From: Paraglaciecola hydrolytica
GTDB taxonomy: Bacteria > Pseudomonadota > Gammaproteobacteria > Enterobacterales > Alteromonadaceae
NCBI RefSeq assembly: GCF_001565895.1
Contig: NZ_LSNE01000005.1
Location: forward strand, 470,015 to 534,014
Direction of reading: 5' to 3'
DNA length: 64,000 bases
In this document: piece by piece, positions 19,506 to 57,228 of the stretch
Layout of the letters: the number at the start of each line of letters is the position of its first letter
How positions within the stretch are numbered: position 1 is the first letter of the stretch
Position numbers and translations under genes: made by a program
The notes under the pieces: model-generated
Told to the model about the DNA's origin: nothing
Seen by the model: only the letters and a program-made list of their open reading frames with translations
The model's database searches: none

Positions 19506-22484
19506 ATGAAGAGTTTTCAAATGAAGGCTTTAGTGGTTGCCATAACTATGGCTCTTCCAAGTTATGCGCAACAAGTCCAGCAAGTTCCCTCTGAGGCAAA
19601 AAACTCAAATGCTGCTTCGCAAGAAAATGCCAATATTCAGCAAGACTCAAGTGAAGCTGAACTAGAAATAATCGAAGTCACTGGTGTTCGTCAGGCCGAC
19701 ATTAAAGCGCGTGATCTTGAGCGTGAAAAAAATGGTCTGAGTTCAGTCATCGCTACCGATGATATCGGTAACTTTGTTGATCAAAACGTAGCTGAATCAT
19801 TACGTCGTTTGCCTGGAGTTACCTTACAACGCTCAGAAGGCGAAGGTAAATTTGTTAGCGTTAGGGGATTGGGACCTGGATTTGTGGCGGTTAGCATTAA
19901 CGGCTCAGAAATGTCAGGAGTAGGGGACGAACGTAAAGTTGGTTTAGATGCTATTCCATCTGACATACTGGGTTCTATCGAAGTACTTAAAACTCTAACT
20001 GCCGATCAAGATTTAAACTCCATTGGTGGTGCAGTCAATGTTAATGCTATCTCTGCTTATGATCGTGGTAAAGCCGGTCTAAAATTTAAAGCTCAGGATG
20101 CTTACAGCACCTTAAGAGACAAACATTCTCCTAAATTTAGTTTAGATGGCACCGAATTTTTCCTCGATAAAACCATAGGTATAGGTTTTGCCTTATCTCA
20201 TGAAAATCGTAAATCTCAGGTGGATGAAGTGCGTCACCACAGCACCAACGACATGAGTTTTTATCAAGCTGATACCGGATTCACTGCCAACGAAAACGCA
20301 ACAGTGGCAGAGCAAATTGCCGCTGGGCCAGAAATACTGGCACCTAACCAATTAGAATATCGTCGCGAAATTGCAGGACGTACCCGCAAAGCGGCCTCAC
20401 TTAACGTTGAATTTAAACCCAACGATACCAGTTACTACTATGTTCGAGGCAATGTCACTCAATTTACTGATTCTGATGTGGCCTTGCGTGAGTTTTATGA
20501 TTTTCAAGATGCCGGTCCCATAGGTGATGGCGAAATTCTTTATGTTAATGGTGATACTAAAGAGTTCATCTTGAGCGATATTGATGTTTATCATCAATAT
20601 TTTATTCAGGGCGGTGACAACACCACCAAAAGTTTTAGCCTAGGTGGCGAAAACAAAATTGGTGAGAGCTGGACCATAGATTACGAATTGGCTCAGTCTT
20701 CTTCTTATGAAGAATCTAATAACGACAGGCGTGTGCAATTTCGTGAACGTGATCTGGTGGTTTATGGCAAAGGTTCTAAAGACAATATTCAGGCTCAAGT
20801 TGTAAGCCCAGAATACGCTGCACAATTAGGTGGATTTGATCCTGCTTTAATTGGTACCTCAGGCACTGGTGATGCATCTACAATGGCTAATTGGGATTTT
20901 GATAACCTGTTTCTCGAAGATGGTACCCGCGATGATAAAATCAAAAGTGGCAAGTTAAATCTAACCAACGATTTTTTTTATAAACACTTAAGTTATATCA
21001 AAGCCGGTGTGGCATTTTCTCAGCGTGAATATATACGTGATAAAAACCGCGCCAGTTATATTCCAAGCGCTGCCGACTGCGGCGGTGATGCGACTTGTAT
21101 CAGTGTTATAGGCGCACCACATTCTGACTACCCAAGTTCTATCCCCGCAGACAGTAATTTTCAGTATCCCTTTGTTGATCAGGATCAAGTTGATTACATA
21201 GTTGATAGTTCAAAAATAACCCGTGAAAGTGCGACGCAAGGTGAGCTTTCAATTGATAGTACCAAAGAAGATTACACTCTTACTGAAGACACCAAAGCCG
21301 CCTATGTGATGGCTGAAATGCCCATCAACGATGACTTAATTATGATCGCAGGTGTGCGTTTTGTAGAAACCGAGTTTTCGTCAACCGGCTTTTTATCGCT
21401 AGAAAATGATGACTTTGAATTTAACGGAGCAGGTCTGGGTAGCTTGGATATCGCAATTCCATTACCTGAAGCGTCGATTAAATACAGTGAATACTTCCCT
21501 AGTGTGCATCTTCGTTACGAACCTAACAGCGACATATTAGTACGTGGTGCAATTTGGACTAGTTTTACTCGTCCGTCATTTAGTCAAGCCCGAGCATTTG
21601 CCAAGTTTGACGAAGATATTGAGTTGTGCCCACCACAAAGTGCTAATTGTGCTGATGACCAAGGCAGTGCCAACGTACAACAATTACAGGACTATATCTT
21701 AGGCTCTAACAATACTATCGACGTAGGTAATCCTAATTTATTAGCGATGACATCAATTAACTACGATGCGTCGATAGGTTGGTATCCCTCTAAAGATTTG
21801 TTTATGGAAGCCTCAATCTTTTATAAAGATATCGATAATTTTATTGTTGATGTCAATGGTATCACCATGAACATCGAAGACCTGCCACTCACTTTGCCGG
21901 TTAATCAGATCACTGAATTTGTTATCCCTCAAAATCTGATCTTGAATGATGTCAACATCACTCTTAACGGCAACAAAGCCACAGTATTAGGCCTTGAGCT
22001 AAGCTATAACCAGTTTTTTGAAAGCGGTTTTTTTGTACAAAGTAACATGACTTTGCTCGATAGTGAGGCTGAACTGGATCCTTCTATTCGTGCTGACAAA
22101 GTACCTTTACCTGACCAAGCTGATACCACCTTTAACCTGACCTTAGGTTGGGAAGATGCAGACTATTCTGTGCGTATTATCGGTAATCACCGCGCCAAAA
22201 TTCTAGAAGAAGTAGGAGCTTGTCCGGTAGGTGTCAGTGTCTCTAATGCACGAGCCTGTAAGTTGTGGTCTGACCGCTACCAGGATGCCGTTCAAAGTGT
22301 CGATTTCAAAGCCAAGATGAATATCAACAAACAATTGTCGGTGTATTTTGATGCCATTAATTTAACTGACGAAGTGGACTTACGTTATTTCGAGGGTAAT
22401 GAACAAAGTGGCGGCAATATCCTTTATCAACGAGAAGAATATGGCAGAACTTTTCAGCTAGGCCTGAACTACAAATTTTATTAG
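19506..22484 (+). CDS. TonB-dependent receptor for pectin oligosaccharides
   Basis: Outer-membrane receptor of 992 residues. After the signal peptide (cleavage near S-Y-A-Q) a Gln/Ser-rich spacer leads to a TonB-box-like EIIEVTGVR, then the plug (VAESLRRLPGVTLQRSEGEGKFVSVRGLG; SIEVLKTLTADQDLNSIGGAVN) and a 22-strand barrel ending in GRTFQLGLNYKFY. The size and the long plug motif are typical of carbohydrate receptors of marine Alteromonadales rather than iron receptors. It shares the operator with the pectin operons and is followed after 80 bases by the giant CE8-PL1 lipoprotein gene, so it probably imports the oligogalacturonides made at the surface. Confidence 0.92.
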   Translation: MKSFQMKALVVAITMALPSYAQQVQQVPSEAKNSNAASQENANIQQDSSEAELEIIEVTGVRQADIKARDLEREKNGLSSVIATDDIGNFVDQNVAESLRRLPGVTLQRSEGEGKFVSVRGLGPGFVAVSINGSEMSGVGDERKVGLDAIPSDILGSIEVLKTLTADQDLNSIGGAVNVNAISAYDRGKAGLKFKAQDAYSTLRDKHSPKFSLDGTEFFLDKTIGIGFALSHENRKSQVDEVRHHSTNDMSFYQADTGFTANENATVAEQIAAGPEILAPNQLEYRREIAGRTRKAASLNVEFKPNDTSYYYVRGNVTQFTDSDVALREFYDFQDAGPIGDGEILYVNGDTKEFILSDIDVYHQYFIQGGDNTTKSFSLGGENKIGESWTIDYELAQSSSYEESNNDRRVQFRERDLVVYGKGSKDNIQAQVVSPEYAAQLGGFDPALIGTSGTGDASTMANWDFDNLFLEDGTRDDKIKSGKLNLTNDFFYKHLSYIKAGVAFSQREYIRDKNRASYIPSAADCGGDATCISVIGAPHSDYPSSIPADSNFQYPFVDQDQVDYIVDSSKITRESATQGELSIDSTKEDYTLTEDTKAAYVMAEMPINDDLIMIAGVRFVETEFSSTGFLSLENDDFEFNGAGLGSLDIAIPLPEASIKYSEYFPSVHLRYEPNSDILVRGAIWTSFTRPSFSQARAFAKFDEDIELCPPQSANCADDQGSANVQQLQDYILGSNNTIDVGNPNLLAMTSINYDASIGWYPSKDLFMEASIFYKDIDNFIVDVNGITMNIEDLPLTLPVNQITEFVIPQNLILNDVNITLNGNKATVLGLELSYNQFFESGFFVQSNMTLLDSEAELDPSIRADKVPLPDQADTTFNLTLGWEDADYSVRIIGNHRAKILEEVGACPVGVSVSNARACKLWSDRYQDAVQSVDFKAKMNINKQLSVYFDAINLTDEVDLRYFEGNEQSGGNILYQREEYGRTFQLGLNYKFY

Positions 22485-45702: not shown

Positions 45703-46482
45703 GTGAAAGATAAAAATTCAGAAGTTGAATCCGTTAATAAGTACGCCGCACCAGCTCTTGAAAAAGGCTTAGACATTCTGGAGTTATTAGCCGGTGAACC
45801 AGAGGGTTTGAAACTTAAAGATATCGCTTTGTCGTTAAAAAAATCTGTTTCTGAAGTATTTAGAATGGTTTTGGTACTAGAACGACGAACTTATTTAAAG
45901 TTTGATGCCGATAGTGATCGTTATTCGCTATCGATGAAACTCTTCGAGATAGCCCATCAACATGTGCCTGTACAAAAGTTAGTTAAAGCCGCTTCGCTCG
46001 AAATGGAAAAATTAGCGAAAAACATCGAGCAATCCTGCCATTTGACCATTAACTCCAATAATCATGTTTTAGTAATTGTGCAAAAAGACAGCCCTATGGA
46101 TAAGTTAATCTCCATACGTTTGGGTGCCAAATCTCCACTACTGAATTCTTGTTCTGGGCATATATTTATTGCGTTTTCCAAAGAAGAACAACAACAAAGA
46201 ATACTCGAATTATTAGCAGTCGATGCCACTAAAGGTGAGTTGGCAAACGTTATCAGCGTGGTCCGCAATCAAGGCTTTGAGCGAATGTTGAGTAAACAAA
46301 TTCAAGGTGTTGAAGATATTGGCTTTCCTGTCTATGGCTACGAAAATGAATTGGTGGCGTGCTTAGTAGTGCCCTATCTGCATTATATTGGTGATTTAAA
46401 TACTGTTAATATTAATAGCGCTATTGCTGCAACAAAAGAAACTGCCATCAATATCTCACGCAAATTAGGTGCGATATTCTGA
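45703..46482 (+). CDS. IclR-family transcription regulator of the second glycan locus
   Basis: A 259-residue regulator starting at GTG 45703, with a winged-helix domain at about 15-75 (LKLKDIALSLKKSVSEVFRMVLVLERRTYL) and an IclR effector domain (KSPLLNSCSGHIFIAFS; GFPVYGYENELVACLVVPYL). It is read away from the decayed UxaA/FAH genes, the usual position for their regulator, and towards the GH95 gene. It may now regulate only the glycosidase-receptor genes or be left without targets. Confidence 0.85.
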   Translation: MKDKNSEVESVNKYAAPALEKGLDILELLAGEPEGLKLKDIALSLKKSVSEVFRMVLVLERRTYLKFDADSDRYSLSMKLFEIAHQHVPVQKLVKAASLEMEKLAKNIEQSCHLTINSNNHVLVIVQKDSPMDKLISIRLGAKSPLLNSCSGHIFIAFSKEEQQQRILELLAVDATKGELANVISVVRNQGFERMLSKQIQGVEDIGFPVYGYENELVACLVVPYLHYIGDLNTVNINSAIAATKETAINISRKLGAIF

Positions 46483-46744: not shown

Positions 46745-49192
46745 TTGAGTAATGCTGTGTCACAAGCAATTCAAACTAGCTCTTGGCAACATAAAATTTC
46801 AGGTTTAATCATCAGTTATGTTAGTTGTGTATTGCTGATATATGTTACATCTAGTGCCTGGGCAGACACTTTGCCAATGCCATTAGCATTGAGTTTTACT
46901 CAGCCTGCATTAGATTGGGAAAGTGAGTCACTGCCTATTGGTAACGGCGCTTTGGGTGCTAATGTCATGGGCGGTATTAATGAAGACATCTTACAATTTG
47001 CCGAAAAAACCTTATGGACAGGTGGTCCACAAAGTAAACAAGGTTATGATTTTGGCTTACCCCCGGCAGGCAGTGATTACCCGCAAAAACTAAAGTCTAT
47101 TCAAAACCAATTGAGCGAACAAAACCAACTCACACCTGAAGAAGTTGCCAAGGTACTAGGTCGTGATTATCAAGGTTATGGCAGTTACCAAAGTTTTGCA
47201 TCGGTAAAAATGAATTTCTTCCATAATGAAAAGGCCATCCGCAACTATCAACGTTCACTGCAGCTAAACAGTGCAGTGGCTCGTGTTACGTTTACTGAAA
47301 ATGATGTTGTTTATAAACGAGAGTATTTTGTTAGTTATCCCGATCAGGCGATTGTTACACGAATCTGTGCCAGCCAAAAAGGCAAGATCCATTTAAACCT
47401 CAGTATGGTTACAGCGCCTAATCGCTCGGTGAATTATTCGCAGTCCGACCAGCAGATTACTTTGCAAGGGGTATTAAACGATAACGGCCTACAATACGCG
47501 TCAATACTTAGCTTTCATCACAAAAATGGTAAAACTATTCAGCACAAAAATAGTGTTGAAATTATCGGTGCCGATGAGCTTTGGTATACCGTTGTGGCTA
47601 CTACCAATTATCGTCAGCAATATCCAAACTATCGTGGAACAGACGCCCTTAGCAAAGCACAACAATCTCAGGAAAAATTACTTGGCCTGACTTACGAAAA
47701 TTTATTGACTAATCATGAAAACGATTACAGGGAGTTATTCTCGCGCGTCACCTTAGATCTCAAGCAGCAGGCAACAACGTTGAGTACACCAGCATTATTG
47801 GCTGGTTACCAATCTAGCAATACTGCTGAACAAGATCGTGCTTTGGAAGTATTGTATTTTCAATACGGCCGTTATTTGTTGATCAGTTCGTCTCGCGCCG
47901 GCTCCCTGCCCGCTAATCTACAAGGGGTATGGAACCAATACGAACATGCTCCTTGGAGCGCGGATTATCACGTTAATATCAATTTGCAGATGAATTATTG
48001 GTTGGCCGATGTAACAAACTTACCTGAAACCCTTCCACCTCTTTTTGATTTTATAGATAGTTTAGTGGAGCCCGGCGCACAAACCGCCCTGCGTTTATTT
48101 GACGCACCAGGCTGGACCTTGTTGTTAAACACCAACATTTGGGGGTTTACAGGGTTAATTGCGTGGCCAACTGCATTCTGGCAACCAGAAGGTGCGGCAT
48201 GGATGGCCCAACATTATTTTGAACACTACCGCTTCACCTTAGATCAAGACTTTTTGACACAGCGCGCTTATCCAGTGATGTTAGGGGCCAGTGAATTTTG
48301 GTTAAGCACTTTACAAAAAGACCAACAAGGTAACTGGTTAATCAGCCCTAGTTACTCACCTGAGCACGGTAATTTTACTGCTGGTGCGGCAATGTCTCAG
48401 CAAATCATCTACGACCTGTTAACTAATACCAGTGAAGCTGCTGGCATTGTCGGCGATGCAGAAAACCAGAAACGTATCAGTAAGGTGCTCGCTAATCTCG
48501 CCCCCGGTCTACTTATTGGCTCGTGGGGGCAATTACAGGAGTGGCGTCAAGATCTGGATGATAAAAGCTCAGAACATCGTCATGTTTCACAACTATATGC
48601 CTTACATCCTGGTAATCAGTTATCACCTTTAACCACACCCGAGTTGGCTCAAGCTGCCCTTACTACCCTTAATAGTCGTGGTGATGGTGGCACAGGATGG
48701 AGTAAAGCTTGGAAAATAAACTTTTGGGCTCGTTTGTTAGATGGTGATCGGGCACACAAAGTATTAAGCGAACAGTTATTGCACAGCACCCTTAAAAACT
48801 TGTGGGACAATCACCCCCCTTATCAAATCGACGGGAACTTTGGTGCCACCGCTGGCATCGCTGAAATGTTATTGCAAAGTCATTTAGGCGAAATTCATTT
48901 ACTCCCGGCTTTACCTTCAGCTTGGCCAAATGGTCAGATTAGCGGCTTAAAAGCCAGAGGCGGAATCACGGTGGAACTCGCGTGGCTGAACGGCAAATTA
49001 CAACATGCCATGTTTAATAGTCAGCACAGTCAAATCATAAACATCAGATGCACAGATTGCACTGATGTTAGCCAGCTAAGGGACAAGCAAGGCAATCTTA
49101 TAACAATGCAAAAACGACCAGATGGATTCAATTTTATAGCCAAAAGTGGCGTGAATTACCGCTTACTGGTTAGTTCGGAGCCACTCAATTAG
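46745..49192 (+). CDS. GH95 alpha-L-fucosidase / alpha-L-galactosidase
   Basis: An 815-residue glycosidase, normal GH95 length. A TTG start at 46745 gives an extended N-region and a hydrophobic signal ending at SSAWA-D, so the enzyme is exported. The N-terminal beta domain starts with LPIGNGALGANVMGG. The active-site residues of family GH95 can be placed: Asn411 and Asn413 (VNINLQMNYWLAD), Glu540 (SPSYSPEHG) and Asp696 (YQIDGNFGATAGIAEML). GH95 enzymes remove alpha-1,2-L-fucose, or L-galactose, from galactose in xyloglucan, pectin side chains and related glycans. The receptor gene follows after 58 bases. Confidence 0.92.
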   Translation: MSNAVSQAIQTSSWQHKISGLIISYVSCVLLIYVTSSAWADTLPMPLALSFTQPALDWESESLPIGNGALGANVMGGINEDILQFAEKTLWTGGPQSKQGYDFGLPPAGSDYPQKLKSIQNQLSEQNQLTPEEVAKVLGRDYQGYGSYQSFASVKMNFFHNEKAIRNYQRSLQLNSAVARVTFTENDVVYKREYFVSYPDQAIVTRICASQKGKIHLNLSMVTAPNRSVNYSQSDQQITLQGVLNDNGLQYASILSFHHKNGKTIQHKNSVEIIGADELWYTVVATTNYRQQYPNYRGTDALSKAQQSQEKLLGLTYENLLTNHENDYRELFSRVTLDLKQQATTLSTPALLAGYQSSNTAEQDRALEVLYFQYGRYLLISSSRAGSLPANLQGVWNQYEHAPWSADYHVNINLQMNYWLADVTNLPETLPPLFDFIDSLVEPGAQTALRLFDAPGWTLLLNTNIWGFTGLIAWPTAFWQPEGAAWMAQHYFEHYRFTLDQDFLTQRAYPVMLGASEFWLSTLQKDQQGNWLISPSYSPEHGNFTAGAAMSQQIIYDLLTNTSEAAGIVGDAENQKRISKVLANLAPGLLIGSWGQLQEWRQDLDDKSSEHRHVSQLYALHPGNQLSPLTTPELAQAALTTLNSRGDGGTGWSKAWKINFWARLLDGDRAHKVLSEQLLHSTLKNLWDNHPPYQIDGNFGATAGIAEMLLQSHLGEIHLLPALPSAWPNGQISGLKARGGITVELAWLNGKLQHAMFNSQHSQIINIRCTDCTDVSQLRDKQGNLITMQKRPDGFNFIAKSGVNYRLLVSSEPLN

Positions 49193-49250: not shown

Positions 49251-52229
49251 ATGAAAAGTAAATACCTTACCTTTGATAGCCCTTTGGGCAATTTATACAA
49301 AAGGTCTAAAACATCCCTATGCGTATTAGGTGCCTTAGGCATCTTAACGCCTGGACTTGCCCTTGCTCAGGACGCTGCAACAGAAGAAGCTAATGCCGAA
49401 ACTGAAGTTATTGAAGTAACAGGTCTACGTTCAAGTATGATTTCGGCTCAGGCTAGAAAACAAAACTCCAATAAAATCATGGACGGTATTAGTGCTGATG
49501 ATTTAGGCGCCCTACCTGATCGCAGTATTACCGAAACCTTACAACGTGTTGCAGGTGTATCTATCGACCGTTATATGTCCCTTGGCGACCCCGAGCATTT
49601 TTCAGTAGAAGGTAACGGCGTTATTGTACGAGGTTTATCGCAGGTACGCAGTGAATTGAATGGCCGTAGTTCGTTTAGCGCTAATGGTGGCCGTACACTC
49701 AGTTTTGGTGATGTTCCTCCTGAGCTTTTAAACGCGGTAAACATATACAAAAGCCCTACTGCCGATCAGGTCGAAGGTGGTTTAGCTGGCACTATCGATT
49801 TAGAAACTAAGTTACCCTTTCACTACGATGGACAAAAAATGTCCTTTAGTTTGGAAGCCAACTATGGCGACATGATTAAAGAAACCACACCTGCTTATTC
49901 GGCGCTTTACAGCAATACTTGGGATACCAAGGCCGGTAAGTTTGGCTTTTTAGCCGATTTTGCATTTTCAGAATTGTCTACCCGCAACGATTCAATTTAT
50001 GTCCGTCCTTATTTCTCTCGCGACAATATGCCAGCGCACGAAGGTGAAAAAGTCTTTGTTCCCCGTGGTGCCGACTGGCGTACCATGCATTTTAATCGCG
50101 AACGTTCAGGGCAATACGTGGCGTTGCAATGGGCTCCACAAGAAAATCACGAATTTGTACTGACCTATTTTAACAGTGAATATGATATGCGCTGGGACGA
50201 AGATGCGATTTTTGTCAGCAATGATATTACTGAAGTAACCGCCTCTGCAGACAGTGTTTATGACAGCATGGGCGTTATGAAAAAGGGACGACTAACAGCA
50301 GCAAGCGATATTGCTATGGGCTCTGACATCCGCGTTTCTGCACAAAATGCTCAGACTCGTGACATTTCTCTAGAGTACAAATACTTCAACGACAATTCAG
50401 CGTTCAAGTTCTCATTGCAACGTGTTGACGCTACATCAAAAGGGATCGACTCAACAGTGGCCGTGGCGACTCGCGTTCCTTATATTGATATCGATTTATC
50501 TGGCAGTTTGCCTTCGGTTACATCGGATCCCGTTCATTTAGCAAATCCTGACAATTATGTATGGGATTTTTTGATGGACAACCAATATGACAACGCTGGA
50601 GATATGACCACAGCGGCGGCAGATTATGAGTACTTTTTAGAAGACAGTGTTATCACTTCTATCAAAACCGGTGCGCGTTTTACCAAATCAACCTCGGATA
50701 ACTTCGATTCGGGTTATAACTGGGGCGCAGTAGGTAACTGGCTATACAGTTCTGGACTGATTGAAAGTGGTGCGAACCCGCTTGAGTCAGATATGCATCT
50801 CAATGAATTTAATAACTTTTTCCAAGGTGATGTAGCTGCACCTGCCAATCTATATGCGCCTATCGCCCACTACGCTGAAGGTTTCCAACAAGGCAGTTAC
50901 CAAGAAGTAAAAGACAAAATAACCTACGTAGATAATGGCTGGTTTGACCCCGACGGCGCTACGTGGCAACCTCGAAATCTAGATGACCAGCAGTGGTACA
51001 ACTCGCAAGAAGAAAAAACCTCTGCCGTGTATGTGCAAGCTAATTTTGAACTGAACAACTTAAAGTTCCCCGTCAGCGGTAATATGGGCGTGCGTTATGT
51101 CAAAACCGACAATACGGCTTTTGGCTATCTTACCTTCCCTAATGGACTATTGTTTGGCGAAGGAGCTTACGAAGAGCGAGCAGCCGAACATTCTTATAAT
51201 AATCTACTACCCAGCTTAAACGTTAAAATTGAACTACGTGAAGACTTGTTTTTACGTTTTGCAGCAGCAAAAGCGATGACTCGTCCTGACTTTAGTAGTT
51301 TGCGTTCAAGCTTAGCTTTAAGTGCAAACATACCTGATGAAAAACGCGATGATTTTTTTGATCCAGAAACAGGCGGTCCGTTAATAGATCCTAGTACTGG
51401 GCTCCCGATTATCCCTACCGCGGCTGATTATCGTAAAACCGGTGAATCGACTTATAATCCCTATTTAGACCCGATGACCTCCACCCAGTTTGATGCATCG
51501 CTAGAATGGTATTATACCGATTCAAGTTCGATGTATTTAGCATTGTTTACCAAAGACATTAAAGGTGATCAAGTAGACCAATTTGTCACCGAGAGTTACG
51601 GTGCCGAGGGCTATCCTCAACAGGATTACCAAATCAAACGCCCAGTGAGTGAAGGTAAGGCCAAAATTAAAGGGGCTGAGATTAGTGTAAACCACTTTTT
51701 TACCAGCCTGCCCTCGCCCTTTGATGGTTTAGGTATTAGTGCCAACTACACCTACATAGATAGTAGTAGTATTGTTAACGCGGATAGTGCACCTCGTGAT
51801 ACCAACGGTATGCCCTATGACTACGAGTTACCCTTTAAAGCTATCTCTAAAAATGCCTATAACGTAGTGGGTATTTATCAAAAATACGATATCACTGTTC
51901 GTTTAGCCTATAACTGGCGTAGTGAATTTTTAACCTCTGTTGGTGCCAACGGTTTTAATGGTTCAATCCCACTTAGTTCTGGTGGTTATGTTGACGGCAG
52001 TGGCGATAATATCGACTGGCGTTTACCAGTGCTCAACGCGGCTGGTGGTTATTTAGATGGTTCTATATCTTATAAAATAGACGATACCTTTACTGTTTCA
52101 CTTAACGCTAACAACTTAAGTAATACAGTAACCAAAAATATCGTTAAACAAACTGATTCAGGCGATCATTATTCGGCTTACCATATGAATGACACACGTT
52201 ATTCATTGGCTTTAACCGCAAATTTCTAA
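49251..52229 (+). CDS. TonB-dependent receptor of the second glycan locus
   Basis: A 992-residue outer-membrane receptor. Signal peptide ends near LALAQ; a TonB-box-like TEVIEVTGLR is followed by the plug (LGALPDRSITETLQRVAGVSIDRYM; ANGGRTLSFGDVPPELLNAVNIYKSPTADQVEGGLAGTIDLET) and the barrel ending in SLALTANF. The plug wording is typical of carbohydrate receptors of Alteromonadales, Cellvibrio and Xanthomonadales. Flanked by GH95 before and halogenase-like genes after; closed by a strong terminator. It does not carry the pectin operator. Confidence 0.92.
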   Translation: MKSKYLTFDSPLGNLYKRSKTSLCVLGALGILTPGLALAQDAATEEANAETEVIEVTGLRSSMISAQARKQNSNKIMDGISADDLGALPDRSITETLQRVAGVSIDRYMSLGDPEHFSVEGNGVIVRGLSQVRSELNGRSSFSANGGRTLSFGDVPPELLNAVNIYKSPTADQVEGGLAGTIDLETKLPFHYDGQKMSFSLEANYGDMIKETTPAYSALYSNTWDTKAGKFGFLADFAFSELSTRNDSIYVRPYFSRDNMPAHEGEKVFVPRGADWRTMHFNRERSGQYVALQWAPQENHEFVLTYFNSEYDMRWDEDAIFVSNDITEVTASADSVYDSMGVMKKGRLTAASDIAMGSDIRVSAQNAQTRDISLEYKYFNDNSAFKFSLQRVDATSKGIDSTVAVATRVPYIDIDLSGSLPSVTSDPVHLANPDNYVWDFLMDNQYDNAGDMTTAAADYEYFLEDSVITSIKTGARFTKSTSDNFDSGYNWGAVGNWLYSSGLIESGANPLESDMHLNEFNNFFQGDVAAPANLYAPIAHYAEGFQQGSYQEVKDKITYVDNGWFDPDGATWQPRNLDDQQWYNSQEEKTSAVYVQANFELNNLKFPVSGNMGVRYVKTDNTAFGYLTFPNGLLFGEGAYEERAAEHSYNNLLPSLNVKIELREDLFLRFAAAKAMTRPDFSSLRSSLALSANIPDEKRDDFFDPETGGPLIDPSTGLPIIPTAADYRKTGESTYNPYLDPMTSTQFDASLEWYYTDSSSMYLALFTKDIKGDQVDQFVTESYGAEGYPQQDYQIKRPVSEGKAKIKGAEISVNHFFTSLPSPFDGLGISANYTYIDSSSIVNADSAPRDTNGMPYDYELPFKAISKNAYNVVGIYQKYDITVRLAYNWRSEFLTSVGANGFNGSIPLSSGGYVDGSGDNIDWRLPVLNAAGGYLDGSISYKIDDTFTVSLNANNLSNTVTKNIVKQTDSGDHYSAYHMNDTRYSLALTANF

Positions 52230-52423: not shown

Positions 52424-53947
52424 ATGCAGTCAGCAAATATTGAACATATAGTCATAGTGGGTGGGGGTACAGCTGGTTGGATGACAGCTGCTGCTCTGGC
52501 CAACCGTTTACCGCAAAAACTTTGCCGCATCACTCTCGTTGAGTCTGATGTAATTGGTACTGTGGGAGTTGGCGAATCGACTATTCCCCATATTCGTCAA
52601 TTTAATCAAACCTTAGGTATTGATGAAGCCACTTTTATCAAAAAGACCCATGCAACTGTTAAACTCGGCATCAAATTTAATGATTGGGGCAACATTGGCG
52701 ACAGCTATTTTCATCCCTTTGGCGAACATGGCGAAATCACTCAAGGCATTGATTTTCATCAATACTGGTTAAAAGCCCGTAGTTTGGGTGAAACCTATGG
52801 GCTTGAGCAATACTCTATTGCTGCGATGGCTGGCTTTGCGGGTAAATTTCCACTTTCAACGTCAAATAAACCTACGGTATTTGCCGATTACACTTACTCC
52901 TACCATATTGATGCCTCTGCTTATGCAGCTTTTTTGAGTGACTACGCTCAGCAACGTGGAGTACAACGAATTGAAGGAAAAGTGGTTAAGGTCAATCAGC
53001 ATCTTAATGATTTTGTTCAGAGTATCACTCTTGAAAGTGGCCAAACCATAGAGGGTGATTTGTTTATTGATTGCAGTGGTTTTAAGGCACTTTTGATAGA
53101 TGGTACCTTAAATACACCTTACCTTGATTGGAGCCAATGGTTACCAACAGATAGCGCGGTAGCCGCACCTTGCGAGCATGCTCCTGGTGATCATAGTTCT
53201 AGTAAGGGCAAAATTGCTTTGCAACCTTATACTCAGGCAACGGCCAGAGTGTCAGGCTGGCAGTGGCAAATCCCCTTGCAACATCGCATTGGTAACGGCC
53301 ATGTATTCACCAGTGCGTTTTTAAGCGATCAACACGCTACCGATATACTAATGAATTCTTTGCCCGGTAAAGCCTTAGCCAATCCCAAAATACTGCGTTT
53401 TAAAGCCGGTCGGCGCCAATATTCGTGGCAAAAAAATGTGGTGGCTATTGGTTTATCTTCTGGATTTCTAGAACCCTTAGAATCCACCAGTATTTATTTA
53501 ATTCAACTGGGGGTAAGCAAACTCCTTGAGCTCTTCCCAGATAAGGCATTTCGCCAAGCTGAGATGAATGAATACAACCGCAGTATTTGTCAGCAATATG
53601 AGCTGATCCGCAACTTTATTATTCTGCATTTTCATGTCACTAAACGCAATGATTCACCCTTTTGGGACTACTGCCGCAACATGGCCATCCCAGATGAATT
53701 ACAACATCTCCTCACTTTATTTGCAGAGTCAGGTCGCACTGATCTTGCGCAGTTTGGTGTATGGCCTGCGGTATGTATAGGTCAGAATATAATTCCTCAG
53801 CACTATGATGCTCGGCTCGACAATATCGATGCAGAGCAAATAAAGCAATTGATGGCCAATCACCGCCACAAAATCCAATCTATGCTTGCTACCTTTCCTC
53901 AGGCAGACGATTACATTCAAGAGTTGCTGACTAGGGGAACACGATGA
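52424..53947 (+). CDS. Flavin-dependent tryptophan-halogenase-family protein (TonB-receptor-associated type)
   Basis: About 507 residues from ATG 52424 (an in-frame TTG at 52403 is possible). It keeps the three halogenase marks: FAD-binding IVGGGTAGWMTAAAL, the catalytic-lysine region THATVKLGIKFNDWG after VGVGESTIPHI, and W-x-W-x-I-P as GWQWQIP. Such proteins often sit beside TonB-dependent receptors in Alteromonadales and Caulobacterales; the related BrvH can halogenate indole in vitro, but the natural role of the group is unknown. The gene overlaps the next one by four bases and shares a unit with the GH35-like gene. Confidence 0.88.
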   Translation: MQSANIEHIVIVGGGTAGWMTAAALANRLPQKLCRITLVESDVIGTVGVGESTIPHIRQFNQTLGIDEATFIKKTHATVKLGIKFNDWGNIGDSYFHPFGEHGEITQGIDFHQYWLKARSLGETYGLEQYSIAAMAGFAGKFPLSTSNKPTVFADYTYSYHIDASAYAAFLSDYAQQRGVQRIEGKVVKVNQHLNDFVQSITLESGQTIEGDLFIDCSGFKALLIDGTLNTPYLDWSQWLPTDSAVAAPCEHAPGDHSSSKGKIALQPYTQATARVSGWQWQIPLQHRIGNGHVFTSAFLSDQHATDILMNSLPGKALANPKILRFKAGRRQYSWQKNVVAIGLSSGFLEPLESTSIYLIQLGVSKLLELFPDKAFRQAEMNEYNRSICQQYELIRNFIILHFHVTKRNDSPFWDYCRNMAIPDELQHLLTLFAESGRTDLAQFGVWPAVCIGQNIIPQHYDARLDNIDAEQIKQLMANHRHKIQSMLATFPQADDYIQELLTRGTR

Positions 53948-55455
53948 GTTGGTCAAATCTACAGCCCCAAGAAAATAGCGCAATTAAAAACATCGTCATC
54001 CTTGGCGCTGATATTATTGGCTGGTGCGCTGCCGTTGGATTAGCACGTGGTTTACAAGGCCAACAAGTCAATATTACGGTACTGGATTGTCTTTTAAACG
54101 AGCGTCCGTTAAACCAACCGTCTTTAACTCAAAGCGCAAACGAAGCAGTTATTCATTGCACTGCACATCTTTTCGATTTTCATCGGCTTTTAGGAATTCA
54201 AGATAAACAACTGCTCGTCAATGGCAGTGCCAAGCTGTGTTCTGCTACACAGTTAACTAATTTTTCAGCCCAGCATTCAGATTATTTTATCGGCTGTGAA
54301 AATACTCTGCCAAATTTTTGCACGGTCGAACTACATCAAGTCCTGCAATGGTTAGAGATTGACGATATTAGCCCCTACTCGCTTAGTGCCCTTGCTGCAC
54401 AAAAATCATTATTAGCTTTACCAGCTAACAGCAAAGATGAAATAGCCGCGGGCTTTTCTCCTTCCCTTAATCTGGATGCTAAAGCCTATTTACGTTTTAT
54501 GCAGGGTGCGGCCAGCCAGCTTGGCGTTAAACTGATCAAGGCGACAGTCAGCGATATTCGCTATCACAGTGAAAATGGTTTTATTAAGCAGTTTGAGCTC
54601 GACAACGGTACAACTATAGATGCTGATTTAGTGCTGGATAACAGTGGCCCAACTGGCGTATTAAATGAAATAAATCAACAACGACCTTATGTGGATTGCG
54701 CGACGTTAATTCCCTTTGATAAAAAAATTAGCACGAGGCTTAATATCACCCAACAAGCTAAACCCTATCAGCAATTTATTGCCACTGCAGAGGGTATTGT
54801 TGAAATCAGTTTTATGCCGCAATTTCATGAAATCAGTCTGTATTATGCAAGTACAAGCACCTCTGATGAACAGGCTCAGTACCAGCTACGCAAGTTTGCA
54901 CCTCAAAGTGAGCCATTAGAGCTTAAACAAGTGCAATATGCTTACACTGAACAAGCCATGTTTAAAAACTGTTTTGCCCTAGGCACTACAGCGGGTTATT
55001 TGGGCTCTTCGCCTTTTAGCAATTTAATATTGTGTCAGCGCAGCATTAGTAAACTACTTGATCTGTTTCCAGGTAAAGCCTGCTTAGCTACCAATAGCGC
55101 TGAATTAAATCGTCGAATTGCCAAAGACTATCAACAAGCCTTGGATTATAGCCTGCTGATGTTGCTTTATGCTGAAGGTCAACCATCGTTTTCGTGGCAA
55201 TTATCGCAGCAACAATTACCCGCAATACTGCAACAAAAAATAACTTTATTTAGTAGCAGTGGTCGTGTGGCCAGTGAACTTAACCCTTTAGTTTCGCGGA
55301 TTCGTTGGCTCACGCTGTTAAAACATAAGGTGCTAGACCGCCATGGTTATGAGCCTGTACTCGATGCCCTTGATAAAAGCAATGCTCGACAGTTTTTGCT
55401 CCAACTTAGCCTAAAAATACAACAGTGTTTAAGTCACTACCGACCTTACAACTAA
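53944..55455 (+). CDS. Degenerate halogenase-like flavoprotein
   Basis: A 503-residue protein of the same family and length as its neighbour, and overlapping it (ATGA). The fold is recognisable (VILGADIIGWCAAVGLARGL; LGTTAGYLGSSPFSNLILCQRSISKLLDLFPGKA), but the FAD loop G-x-G-x-x-G is altered to G-A-D-I-I-G and no W-x-W-x-I-P motif is present. A Lys in GSAKLCSATQL may correspond to the catalytic one. It is a full-length open frame with no stop codons, so it is probably expressed, perhaps as a non-catalytic partner of the first protein. Confidence 0.75.
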   Translation: MSWSNLQPQENSAIKNIVILGADIIGWCAAVGLARGLQGQQVNITVLDCLLNERPLNQPSLTQSANEAVIHCTAHLFDFHRLLGIQDKQLLVNGSAKLCSATQLTNFSAQHSDYFIGCENTLPNFCTVELHQVLQWLEIDDISPYSLSALAAQKSLLALPANSKDEIAAGFSPSLNLDAKAYLRFMQGAASQLGVKLIKATVSDIRYHSENGFIKQFELDNGTTIDADLVLDNSGPTGVLNEINQQRPYVDCATLIPFDKKISTRLNITQQAKPYQQFIATAEGIVEISFMPQFHEISLYYASTSTSDEQAQYQLRKFAPQSEPLELKQVQYAYTEQAMFKNCFALGTTAGYLGSSPFSNLILCQRSISKLLDLFPGKACLATNSAELNRRIAKDYQQALDYSLLMLLYAEGQPSFSWQLSQQQLPAILQQKITLFSSSGRVASELNPLVSRIRWLTLLKHKVLDRHGYEPVLDALDKSNARQFLLQLSLKIQQCLSHYRPYN

Positions 55456-55476: not shown

Positions 55477-57228
55477 ATGATAGTAAAAGCAACAAAGTCG
55501 CTGTTTAAGCAACATTCAATACATGCCTTAGGCATCAGTTTATTAAGTTTGAGTTTGCTCAATGCCTGCCAATCCACTGACTCCACAATGTTTAATAGTG
55601 ACAGCAAACAAACCCATGTAATGCCAGAAATTGTCACGCAAAACGGCAAACATGCGTTTATGGTGGATGGCAAACCTTATTTAGTGTTAGGCGCTCAGTC
55701 GAATAATTCAGCCAATTACCCTGCCGCCCTTGCTAAAGTCTGGTCAGTGGTTGAACAAATGTCGGCTAATACCTTAAGTATTCCGGTGGCTTGGGAGCAA
55801 GTTGAGCCTATCGAGGGCCAATTTGATTTTTCTTATCTCGATGTTTTACTCGCCGAAGCTCGCGAGCGTGATATACGCCTGAATTTATTGTGGTTTGCAA
55901 CATGGAAAAACAACGCGCCTCACTATGCGCCAAGTTGGGTAAAACTGGATAACCAACGTTTTCCGCGCGTGGTTAAAAAAGACGGCAGCAGTTTAAATTC
56001 CATGTCCCCTTTGGGTAAAAATACACTAGAAGCGGATAAAAAAGCCTTTGTTAAGTTGATGGAGTATCTAAAAAGCCATGACAAACAACACACAGTGATC
56101 ATGGTACAAATCGAAAATGAAGTGGGCACCTATGGTTCAAAACGTGATTTTTCTGAACTAGCGCAAAGCCAATTTGAACAAATGGTTCCGCAAGAGCTTG
56201 TTGATACTTTAAAGGTCAAAAGTGGCAGCTGGTCAGAAGTTTTTAACAAAGACGCTGATGAATATTTTCATGCTTGGTACATTGCTAAATTTTGTGAAGA
56301 ACTGGCGATTGCAGGTAAAGCCGTTAAAGATTTACCGATGAATGTCAACGTCGCCTTACGTAATCCCTTTTATCCCGGTGATGGCTATTCAATGGGCGGT
56401 CCCACCGATAACGTTATCGATTTATGGAAAATTGCCGCGCCTTCTATCGATATGATAAGTCCTGATATTTACTTCCGCGATCACCTTACTGTGGATAGAG
56501 TCATGGAGTTATATTCGCGACAGGATAACCCTTTATTTATCTCTGAAATAGGTAATGATCAGCCTTACGCCCGTTACTTTTTTACCGCTATGGGCTATCA
56601 GGGGATAGGTTTTGCGCCTTTTGGTATGGATTTCACTGATTATGCCAATTATCCATTAGGTGCCAAAAGCATGAGTGATGAAACTATTGCCCCCTTTGCT
56701 GAAATCTACTCGCTGATGCGACCTTTTGCTGATGTGTGGGCAACCTTGAGTTTTGAAAACAAAGTATGGGGCGTGGCCGAACCTCATGACTCGCTAACCG
56801 AAAAACAAAGTATCTGGAATGCCAATACAACTGAAGAGCAAATCCCTGTATCTGCAGTAGAGCTCGATCCTGCCTTATTTACCCAAACTCTTGATTTGGG
56901 TCTATGGAATGCCGAGGTAACTTATGGTCGTAAGATGTTTTGGATCGACCCACCCATTGGTAATGCACCTGCATCAGGCGGCGCTCTTATCGCCAAGTTA
57001 TCGGAAAACGAATATTTAGTGACGGCCTTACGCGCCCGTGTAAGTTTTTCTCCCTCTACTGAAATAGTCGATAAACACCACATGATTGAGCGAGTTGAAG
57101 AAGGTCACTTTGAGGATGGTAAATGGATTTTTGAGCGGGTATGGAATGGCGATCAAACAGATTGGGGGCTCAATTTCACCTCAGTTCCACATTTGTTAAA
57201 AGTTACCATGGCAACTTACGAGTTGTAA
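55477..57228 (+). CDS. GH35 / DUF5597 beta-galactosidase-like lipoprotein
   Basis: A 583-residue lipoprotein (signal ending L-L-N-A-C) with a TIM barrel related to GH35: the FMVDGKPYLVLGAQSNNSANYPA opening, SIPVAWEQVEPIEGQFDFSYLD, the acid/base Glu in VQIENEVGTYG and the nucleophile Glu in PLFISEIGND. A C-terminal beta domain matches DUF5597. Relatives are beta-galactosidases, some in xyloglucan loci. It follows the second halogenase-like gene after 21 bases. Acting with GH95 it would release galactose after defucosylation (inferred). Confidence 0.87.
   Translation: MIVKATKSLFKQHSIHALGISLLSLSLLNACQSTDSTMFNSDSKQTHVMPEIVTQNGKHAFMVDGKPYLVLGAQSNNSANYPAALAKVWSVVEQMSANTLSIPVAWEQVEPIEGQFDFSYLDVLLAEARERDIRLNLLWFATWKNNAPHYAPSWVKLDNQRFPRVVKKDGSSLNSMSPLGKNTLEADKKAFVKLMEYLKSHDKQHTVIMVQIENEVGTYGSKRDFSELAQSQFEQMVPQELVDTLKVKSGSWSEVFNKDADEYFHAWYIAKFCEELAIAGKAVKDLPMNVNVALRNPFYPGDGYSMGGPTDNVIDLWKIAAPSIDMISPDIYFRDHLTVDRVMELYSRQDNPLFISEIGNDQPYARYFFTAMGYQGIGFAPFGMDFTDYANYPLGAKSMSDETIAPFAEIYSLMRPFADVWATLSFENKVWGVAEPHDSLTEKQSIWNANTTEEQIPVSAVELDPALFTQTLDLGLWNAEVTYGRKMFWIDPPIGNAPASGGALIAKLSENEYLVTALRARVSFSPSTEIVDKHHMIERVEEGHFEDGKWIFERVWNGDQTDWGLNFTSVPHLLKVTMATYEL

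Follow-up and report, generated by a model that had tools for sequence, protein, structure and literature searches.

The window, that is, the whole 64,000-nucleotide stretch of Paraglaciecola hydrolytica DNA that was analyzed, encodes an intact flavin-dependent halogenase (A) whose gene is overlapped by that of a degenerate homologue (B), just downstream of a TonB-dependent receptor gene. The pair is real, recurrent and constrained, and its pseudo-enzyme part is well supported. B is probably maintained as a functional pseudo-enzyme partner of A; that the partnership acts on a large substrate we regard as slightly less likely than not.

Results

An intact halogenase and a degenerate homologue in a glycan import operon

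The locus comprises the following features, all on the + strand.

45703..46482, +, IclR-family regulator (PF01614, PF09339)
46745..49192, +, GH95 glycoside hydrolase (PF22124, 525 bits)
49251..52229, +, TonB-dependent receptor, possible substrate (TIGR01782, 607.8 bits; cut-off 310)
50721..50723, +, codon of receptor Trp491, candidate target (context YNWGAVGNW)
52424..53947, +, A: intact flavin-dependent halogenase of the BrvH/Xcc4156 group, 507 aa (PF04820, motifs, solved relatives, model)
53723..53761, +, shortened loop of A, residues 434-446, 13 aa against 18 in most relatives (alignment)
53933..53938, +, Shine-Dalgarno-like AGGGGA before B (reading of the sequence)
53944..53947, +, ATGA, four-base overlap of the A stop and the B start (sequence)
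53944..55455, +, B: degenerate halogenase homologue (pseudo-enzyme), 503 aa (PF04820, lost motifs, model)
54097..54138, +, residues 52-65 of B, replacing the FAD loop, pLDDT <50 (model)
55276..55287, +, ELNP of B, residues 445-448, invariant in the five B of this operon type
55477..57228, +, GH35-like hydrolase with DUF5597 (PF18120, 129.4 bits)

The gene order is thus IclR, GH95, TonB receptor, A, B, GH35-like/DUF5597. A sequence-only reading had placed the pair inside a glycan import operon, and the profile matches of the GH95, receptor and GH35-like products bear this out; the GH35-like product also scored 461.2 bits against NF051902, below the cut-off of 500.

The reading frame of A starts with the ATG at 52424 and ends with the stop at 53947. 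Its product matches PF04820 (Pfam Trp_halogenase) with 583.2 bits (cut-off 21) and hence belongs to the family. The earlier reading had assigned it all halogenase motifs, and alignments locate G13-x-G15-x-x-G18, K80, W279-Q-W281-Q-I-P284 and E353. The closest solved structures are 6frl, 9luq and 6y1w (bit scores: BrvH, 448.7; Xcc4156, 409.1; and MibH, 201.2), and the structure model has a pLDDT of 88.5 and a pTM of 0.89. A is a flavin-dependent halogenase with every motif intact and is predicted to be active. At its halide site, Ser replaces the usual Gly (PLESTS), as described also for BrvH and the X. campestris brominases (PMC7336383). The QhpG maturase profile NF049967 excludes A from its membership (31.9 bits; cut-off 240). 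No signal peptide is evident, on reading of the sequences, at the start of A or B, so both would act in the cytoplasm.

The shortened loop of A falls, by alignment, within the substrate loop of BrvH (residues 432-444; PMC5945002), which is itself short and thereby leaves the catalytic Lys solvent-exposed (PMC5945002). All five A proteins encoded in the order GH95-receptor-A-B have the 13-residue loop, that is, five residues fewer beside the substrate site. The loop has 18 residues in 27 other upstream partners of B and in 21/21 downstream ones, and 2, 7 or 17-23 residues in 143 other halogenases (the value of 2 probably reflects missing sequence). Because the substrate-side loop of A is shorter than even that of BrvH, the substrate is probably a polypeptide.

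B is encoded by a frame that runs from the ATG at 53944 to the stop at 55455 with no internal stop, and the open frame and its four-base overlap with A were read correctly from the sequence alone. AGGGGA lies 5 bases ahead of the ATG, which fits translation of B. The protein matches PF04820 with 164.9 bits and shares 26% identity with A across an alignment of 519 columns. None of the four features of a functional halogenase (GxGxxG, Lys, WxWxIP, Glu) is present: the alignment gives GADIIG at the glycine motif, Cys in the catalytic-Lys column, Pro in the Glu column and G-I-V-E-I-S-F opposite the G-W-Q-W-Q-I-P of A. The broken FAD loop and the missing W-x-W-x-I-P noted earlier are therefore confirmed, as is the retention of length and fold. 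Indeed, the structure model of B has a complete halogenase fold (pLDDT 87.1, pTM 0.88), which together with the profile match places it in the family. Foldseek aligned the model at a TM of ~0.87 to both 6frl (BrvH) and 6y1w (Xcc4156), with Xcc4156 the nearest fold; comparison with BrvH 6frl gave Z 46.5 and rmsd 2.1 over 473 aligned residues.

B also retains some residues in common with A, such as the Asp of a D-x-S-G motif, invariant across 32 aligned sequences, and 22 invariant residues are peculiar to B in five orthologues. In the five B of this operon type, ELNP stands in the loop stretch that is missing from their A partners.

Degenerate homologues recur beside intact halogenases

The genome to which the window belongs contains 22 halogenase-family genes scoring above 100 bits, in 11 stretches (one gene, matched in two halves, is counted twice among the 22). 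The 22 include four degenerate genes, each immediately downstream of an intact one, and the B of the window is 18-22% identical to the other three. We pooled loci of the genus, 79 loci of named genomes matched by B and loci of further genomes of the family, removed identical copies, and scored the 229 proteins with a length of 420 aa or more on the glycine motif, Lys, W-x-W and Glu. All four were found in 194 proteins, three in two proteins, and one or none in 33; the loci were chosen by similarity to B or by hand, so these counts are not natural frequencies. An intact halogenase gene on the same strand adjoins every one of the 33 degenerate genes and lies directly upstream of 32, the exception (L098) being 320 bases from a contig end. 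Gaps between the two range from -98 to +34 bases, -4 being the commonest. A few other B, such as those of L102 and L198, retain GxGxxG. Going by record titles and tree labels, the degenerate genes belong to Alteromonadaceae, Colwelliaceae, Kangiellaceae, unclassified Gammaproteobacteria and Caulobacterales/Hellea-type Alphaproteobacteria. When B was compared with plasmid records by tblastn, 61 records matched, all below 60% identity; the five listed are halogenase-family genes.

Hence B is not a single-genome oddity, an explanation that we rejected because degenerate genes beside intact ones recur (33 of the 229 scored). A survey of synteny had been proposed when one pair was at hand, and the arrangement indeed recurs in related genomes. 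Adjacency in 33/33 cases is the constant partnership expected of a heteromeric enzyme with a pseudo-enzyme subunit. The view of B as a pseudo-enzyme, first put forward from the sequence, is supported by its fold, its catalytic losses, its sequence constraint and this invariable proximity to an intact homologue.

All genomes that yielded an orthologue of B (5/5) have the operon type of the window. The order GH95-receptor-A-B is seen in L038 (the locus in the window), in L069 (Paraglaciecola algarum G1-23; the same record as L089) and in L197, L198 and L205, which come from other genera of the family. The A-B gaps in the five loci are -4, -4, -4, -7 and +3 bases. In L038, L197 and L205 the run is followed by a DUF5597 gene; in L038, L197 and L198 an IclR gene stands ahead of it. 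Among the five, B proteins are 25-58% identical and A proteins 54-83%.

B evolves faster than A under constraint

Relaxed selection on B, with dN/dS near 1 in relatives, had been named as an outcome that would speak against a functional pair. In the only unsaturated pair of loci, L095-L132 (dS 0.34), dN/dS was 0.18 for B, 0.09 for the upstream A and 0.04 for the receptor. Four more pairs, with a B dS of 1.6-2.2 and hence rough values near saturation, gave 0.09-0.19 for B and 0.03-0.07 for A. The five other-B pairs together thus span 0.09-0.19, far from 1; in five further pairs, including both with the window's B, dS of B was saturated. When the G043 orthologue was evolved neutrally to its divergence from the window's B, 0/2000 simulated frames stayed open, with a mean of 19.5 stops. 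With the frame open in five orthologues in addition, B does not qualify as a pseudogene, and we rejected the idea of a neutral relic on the dN/dS of other B and the simulations. Distances between B proteins are ~2.5 times those between A proteins (median of 66 close pairs). B is constrained, though faster-evolving than A.

Distances of B correlate with those of the upstream A (r 0.69, 32 pairs; 0/2000 permutations as high). In the 20 loci where B is flanked by two halogenases, it gave r 0.76 with the upstream enzyme and 0.68 with the downstream enzyme, and the two flanking halogenases gave 0.87 with each other. Since the flanking enzymes correlate more with each other than B does with A, co-inheritance is enough to explain the correlation.

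In a quick tree of 97 rows, all 33 B fell on one side of a branch with an SH-aLRT of 97, in a data set flagged for many long branches. When eight B were placed singly in trees of intact genes, four grouped with the same six long intact rows, two attached at another fork and two went elsewhere; none was sister to its own A, a weak result because long branches attract.

Halogenase genes accompany TonB-dependent receptors

Nine of the 11 halogenase stretches of this genome hold a receptor, the linkage expected of a receptor-modifying enzyme. In eight the receptor is within 1 kb, and in one it is at 2.05 kb, behind SapC and Cupin_8 genes; with a chance of ~3% per stretch of finding one within 1 kb, the rough p is 5e-13. 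In the pooled set, 28 of the 33 B loci have a receptor resembling those of this genome within the same stretch. As to the remaining five, the receptor of L077 lies in the adjoining stretch L076, L079 and L116 are truncated at contig ends, and for L100 and L160 a check of ORF length and start, rather than a domain search, showed nothing receptor-like within ~10 kb on each side.

Receptors of the x1 type with at least 850 aa were accompanied by A and B in 11/11 cases. Of those best matching x0, 10 have B; the others comprise 17 directly beside intact halogenases (one of which, L216, belongs to a B locus divided between two stretches), five with SapC or Cupin_8 and one with none of these. As x0 receptors also occur with intact halogenases only, A-type enzymes of related loci manage without B.

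We considered Trp491 of the receptor as a candidate target. Trp occupies this column in 27/27 receptors of A+B loci, in about half of 50 other halogenase-linked receptors, and in 1/19 unlinked receptors of this genome. Among 123 receptors from five genomes, it was present in 32/52 at most 5 kb from a halogenase versus 12/71 farther away (p 4e-7), and with a 1 kb limit in 22/39 versus 22/84 (p 0.002). A column scan of the 123 receptors put six columns at or above Trp491, and seven mark the receptors of A+B loci better. Of the 20 most informative columns, Trp491 is the most widely shared with other halogenase-linked receptors (0.51; next, 0.37). On the receptor tree, one or two of 12 independent pairs were informative for Trp491, with a median p of 0.5. 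The wider set, the column scans and the tree test together indicate that shared ancestry explains as much of the pattern. Trp491 is kept as a candidate target, although with phylogeny taken into account its association with halogenases lacks significance.

Discussion

Comparison with known systems

BrvH (PDB 6FRL) is a close relative of A with an open substrate site and the same Ser at the halide-site Gly, but its loop has five residues more. It brominates free indole with an activity that the authors call low, and a second halogenase gene, 42.7% identical, lies upstream of it (PMC5945002); the available parts of that account contain no mention of "TonB", "receptor" or a degenerate partner. 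Xcc4156 (PDB 6Y1W) belongs to the same group. It crystallized as a dimer like other Trp halogenases and, unlike A, is described as a single enzyme (PMC7336383). Both enzymes refuse free tryptophan, and larger or peptide substrates have been suggested for them (PMC5945002, PMC7336383). MibH (PDB 5UAO) halogenates Trp within a peptide, as we propose for A; in contrast to A/B, its substrate is a lanthipeptide, and the parts of PMC5945002 and PMC7336383 that treat it mention no dead partner.

A dead partner of a halogenase is an idea already in print. In the armeniaspirol cluster, the dead homologue of the Ams8/Ams9 pair is predicted to heterodimerize with the active halogenase (PMC13311259), and deletion of Ams8 abolishes the product in vivo, as cited there from other work. 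Unlike A/B, this predicted pairing concerns carrier-bound pyrrole chemistry in a biosynthetic cluster, belongs to another halogenase branch and involves no receptor. QhpG, a weak relative of A, acts in the cytoplasm, before export, to dihydroxylate a polypeptide Trp, for which it requires a second, substrate-holding protein (PMC7876137). It thus resembles the proposed A/B in being a flavoenzyme that acts on polypeptide Trp with a helper, and differs in the reaction and in that its helper is a radical SAM enzyme (PMC7876137).

Among the matches listed in a search of full-text literature, outside which most subscription journals and all preprints lie, we found no account of halogenases of receptor loci, a weak negative; nor was a receptor-linked dead halogenase among the matches listed from the same literature. 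PMC11337851, in the parts available, treats halogenases and receptors apart, save for speculation that virus-receptor contacts may be tuned by a halogenase.

Proposed role of the pair

We favor B as a partner of A because all 33 degenerate genes adjoin an intact halogenase, because the sequence is constrained and the fold complete, and because the operon recurs in 5/5 genomes; the receptors at 9/11 loci, the shortened loop in 5/5 A, and the QhpG and Ams8/Ams9 precedents point the same way. Physical contact between A and B in a heteromer is likely, judging from gene order, overlap and conservation. The overlapping genes would let A and B be made in step in the cytoplasm, where B would most likely bind A, or the substrate of A, and help to hold a large substrate. 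The likeliest polypeptide would be the nascent TonB receptor encoded just upstream, of which a surface-loop Trp such as Trp491 might be halogenated before export; bromide, from sea water, would be a likely halide.

Among the substrates proposed earlier, a receptor-linked one fits best, plausibly as the receptor protein itself, because halogenases accompany receptors locus by locus. One enzyme set per receptor would likewise favor the receptor polypeptide over a separate aromatic compound for each glycan. We nonetheless regard the receptor polypeptide as a bold guess with circumstantial support, and a doubtful one. The boldest form of the proposal is that marine bacteria halogenate a surface-loop Trp of their receptors before export, with a dedicated halogenase for each receptor, and that several classes use a dead paralogue to present or hold the unfolded receptor, making up a receptor-specific protein bromination system; in this full form we consider it unlikely. 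Several results weigh against our best explanation: the x0 receptors without B, L100 and L160 with no receptor-like ORF, the phylogeny test of Trp491, the sufficiency of co-inheritance for the A-B correlation, and the saturated dS of the window's B.

B might instead work alone, without binding A, as a ligand sensor, a receptor chaperone or another enzyme that reuses the fold. Its retained D-x-S-G Asp, its own invariant residues and the GxGxxG of L102 and L198 would suit such a role, which we think rather unlikely given that an intact halogenase is the neighbor in all 33 cases, including the two loci where no receptor is evident. A different possibility concerns the substrate: A, with or without B, would halogenate or oxidize a small aromatic compound from the imported glycan, and the receptor would be the importer only. 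The position of A among GH95 and GH35-like genes and the bromination of free indole by BrvH (PMC5945002) agree with this; we judge it quite unlikely, by argument rather than by test, because an aromatic partner would be required for each of ~22 genes, spread over 11 loci whose receptors differ, and because the indole activity of BrvH is low by its authors' account (PMC5945002). That B is a functionless, decaying duplicate, as its ~2-3-fold faster evolution and lost catalytic motifs might suggest, is extremely improbable and is already contradicted for B as a class by the dN/dS values, the neutral simulations, the orthologues in five genomes and, weakly, by the 0/8 B that are sister to their own A and hence no fresh copies.

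Halogenases of the BrvH/Xcc4156 group have been studied as catalysts, and the papers cited here leave their natural substrate open. Their linkage to receptors supplies a specific candidate for that substrate, and the conserved dead paralogue, which follows the active enzyme throughout entire receptor classes, a missing subunit that assays could include. Should the proposal hold, halogenated outer-membrane receptors would add a new layer to nutrient uptake.

Receptors and halogenases in the P. hydrolytica genome

In the genome of the window's own strain, 29 TonB-dependent receptors score above the cut-off of TIGR01782, and the halogenase family is represented by 22 genes. Judged by eye, window positions 282-29781 look like a pectin/uronate locus, presumably comprising a TRAP transporter, regulators of the IclR and LacI types, genes resembling those for polygalacturonase and pectate lyase, and a large multidomain protein. 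No halogenase gene was found within 29 kb of this locus's own receptor.

Window 19506-22484: receptor belonging to the pectin/uronate-like locus
Window 49251-49370: start of the receptor beside the intact halogenase gene A and its degenerate homologue B

When the latter start was read by eye, about 18 residues (MKSKYLTFDSPLGNLYKR) were seen ahead of an apparent signal-peptide core. For the beginning of an exported protein this stretch looks long, the core itself being putative.

Gene neighborhoods in other loci

Genes for SapC (PF07277), Cupin_8 (PF13621) and DUF6445 (PF20043) are repeated neighbors of receptor and halogenase genes in Paraglaciecola loci.

L031:9264-11071, L027:3656-4342, L070:9448-10149: examples of SapC, Cupin_8 and DUF6445 neighbors

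Among the loci examined, halogenases are intact where the receptor adjoins SapC or Cupin_8, and B shares its stretch with a gene of this kind at L145 and L117 only (other clusters).

In Paraglaciecola algarum (L071:8627-10519), a receptor of the x1 type (eleven of eleven of at least 850 aa go with A and B) and the adjoining halogenase are both truncated and face each other. B is absent, and the locus looks as if a single deletion had taken out the middle of the module.

A row of four halogenase-family genes, the second degenerate, is present at L028:7359-13469, adjoined by a divergent receptor; its A-B-A-A order was also found in loci of Alteromonadaceae and Caulobacterales. A-B pairs with no evident receptor close by occur at L100:8496-11530 and L160:9998-13031; the pair may function as a unit of two genes.
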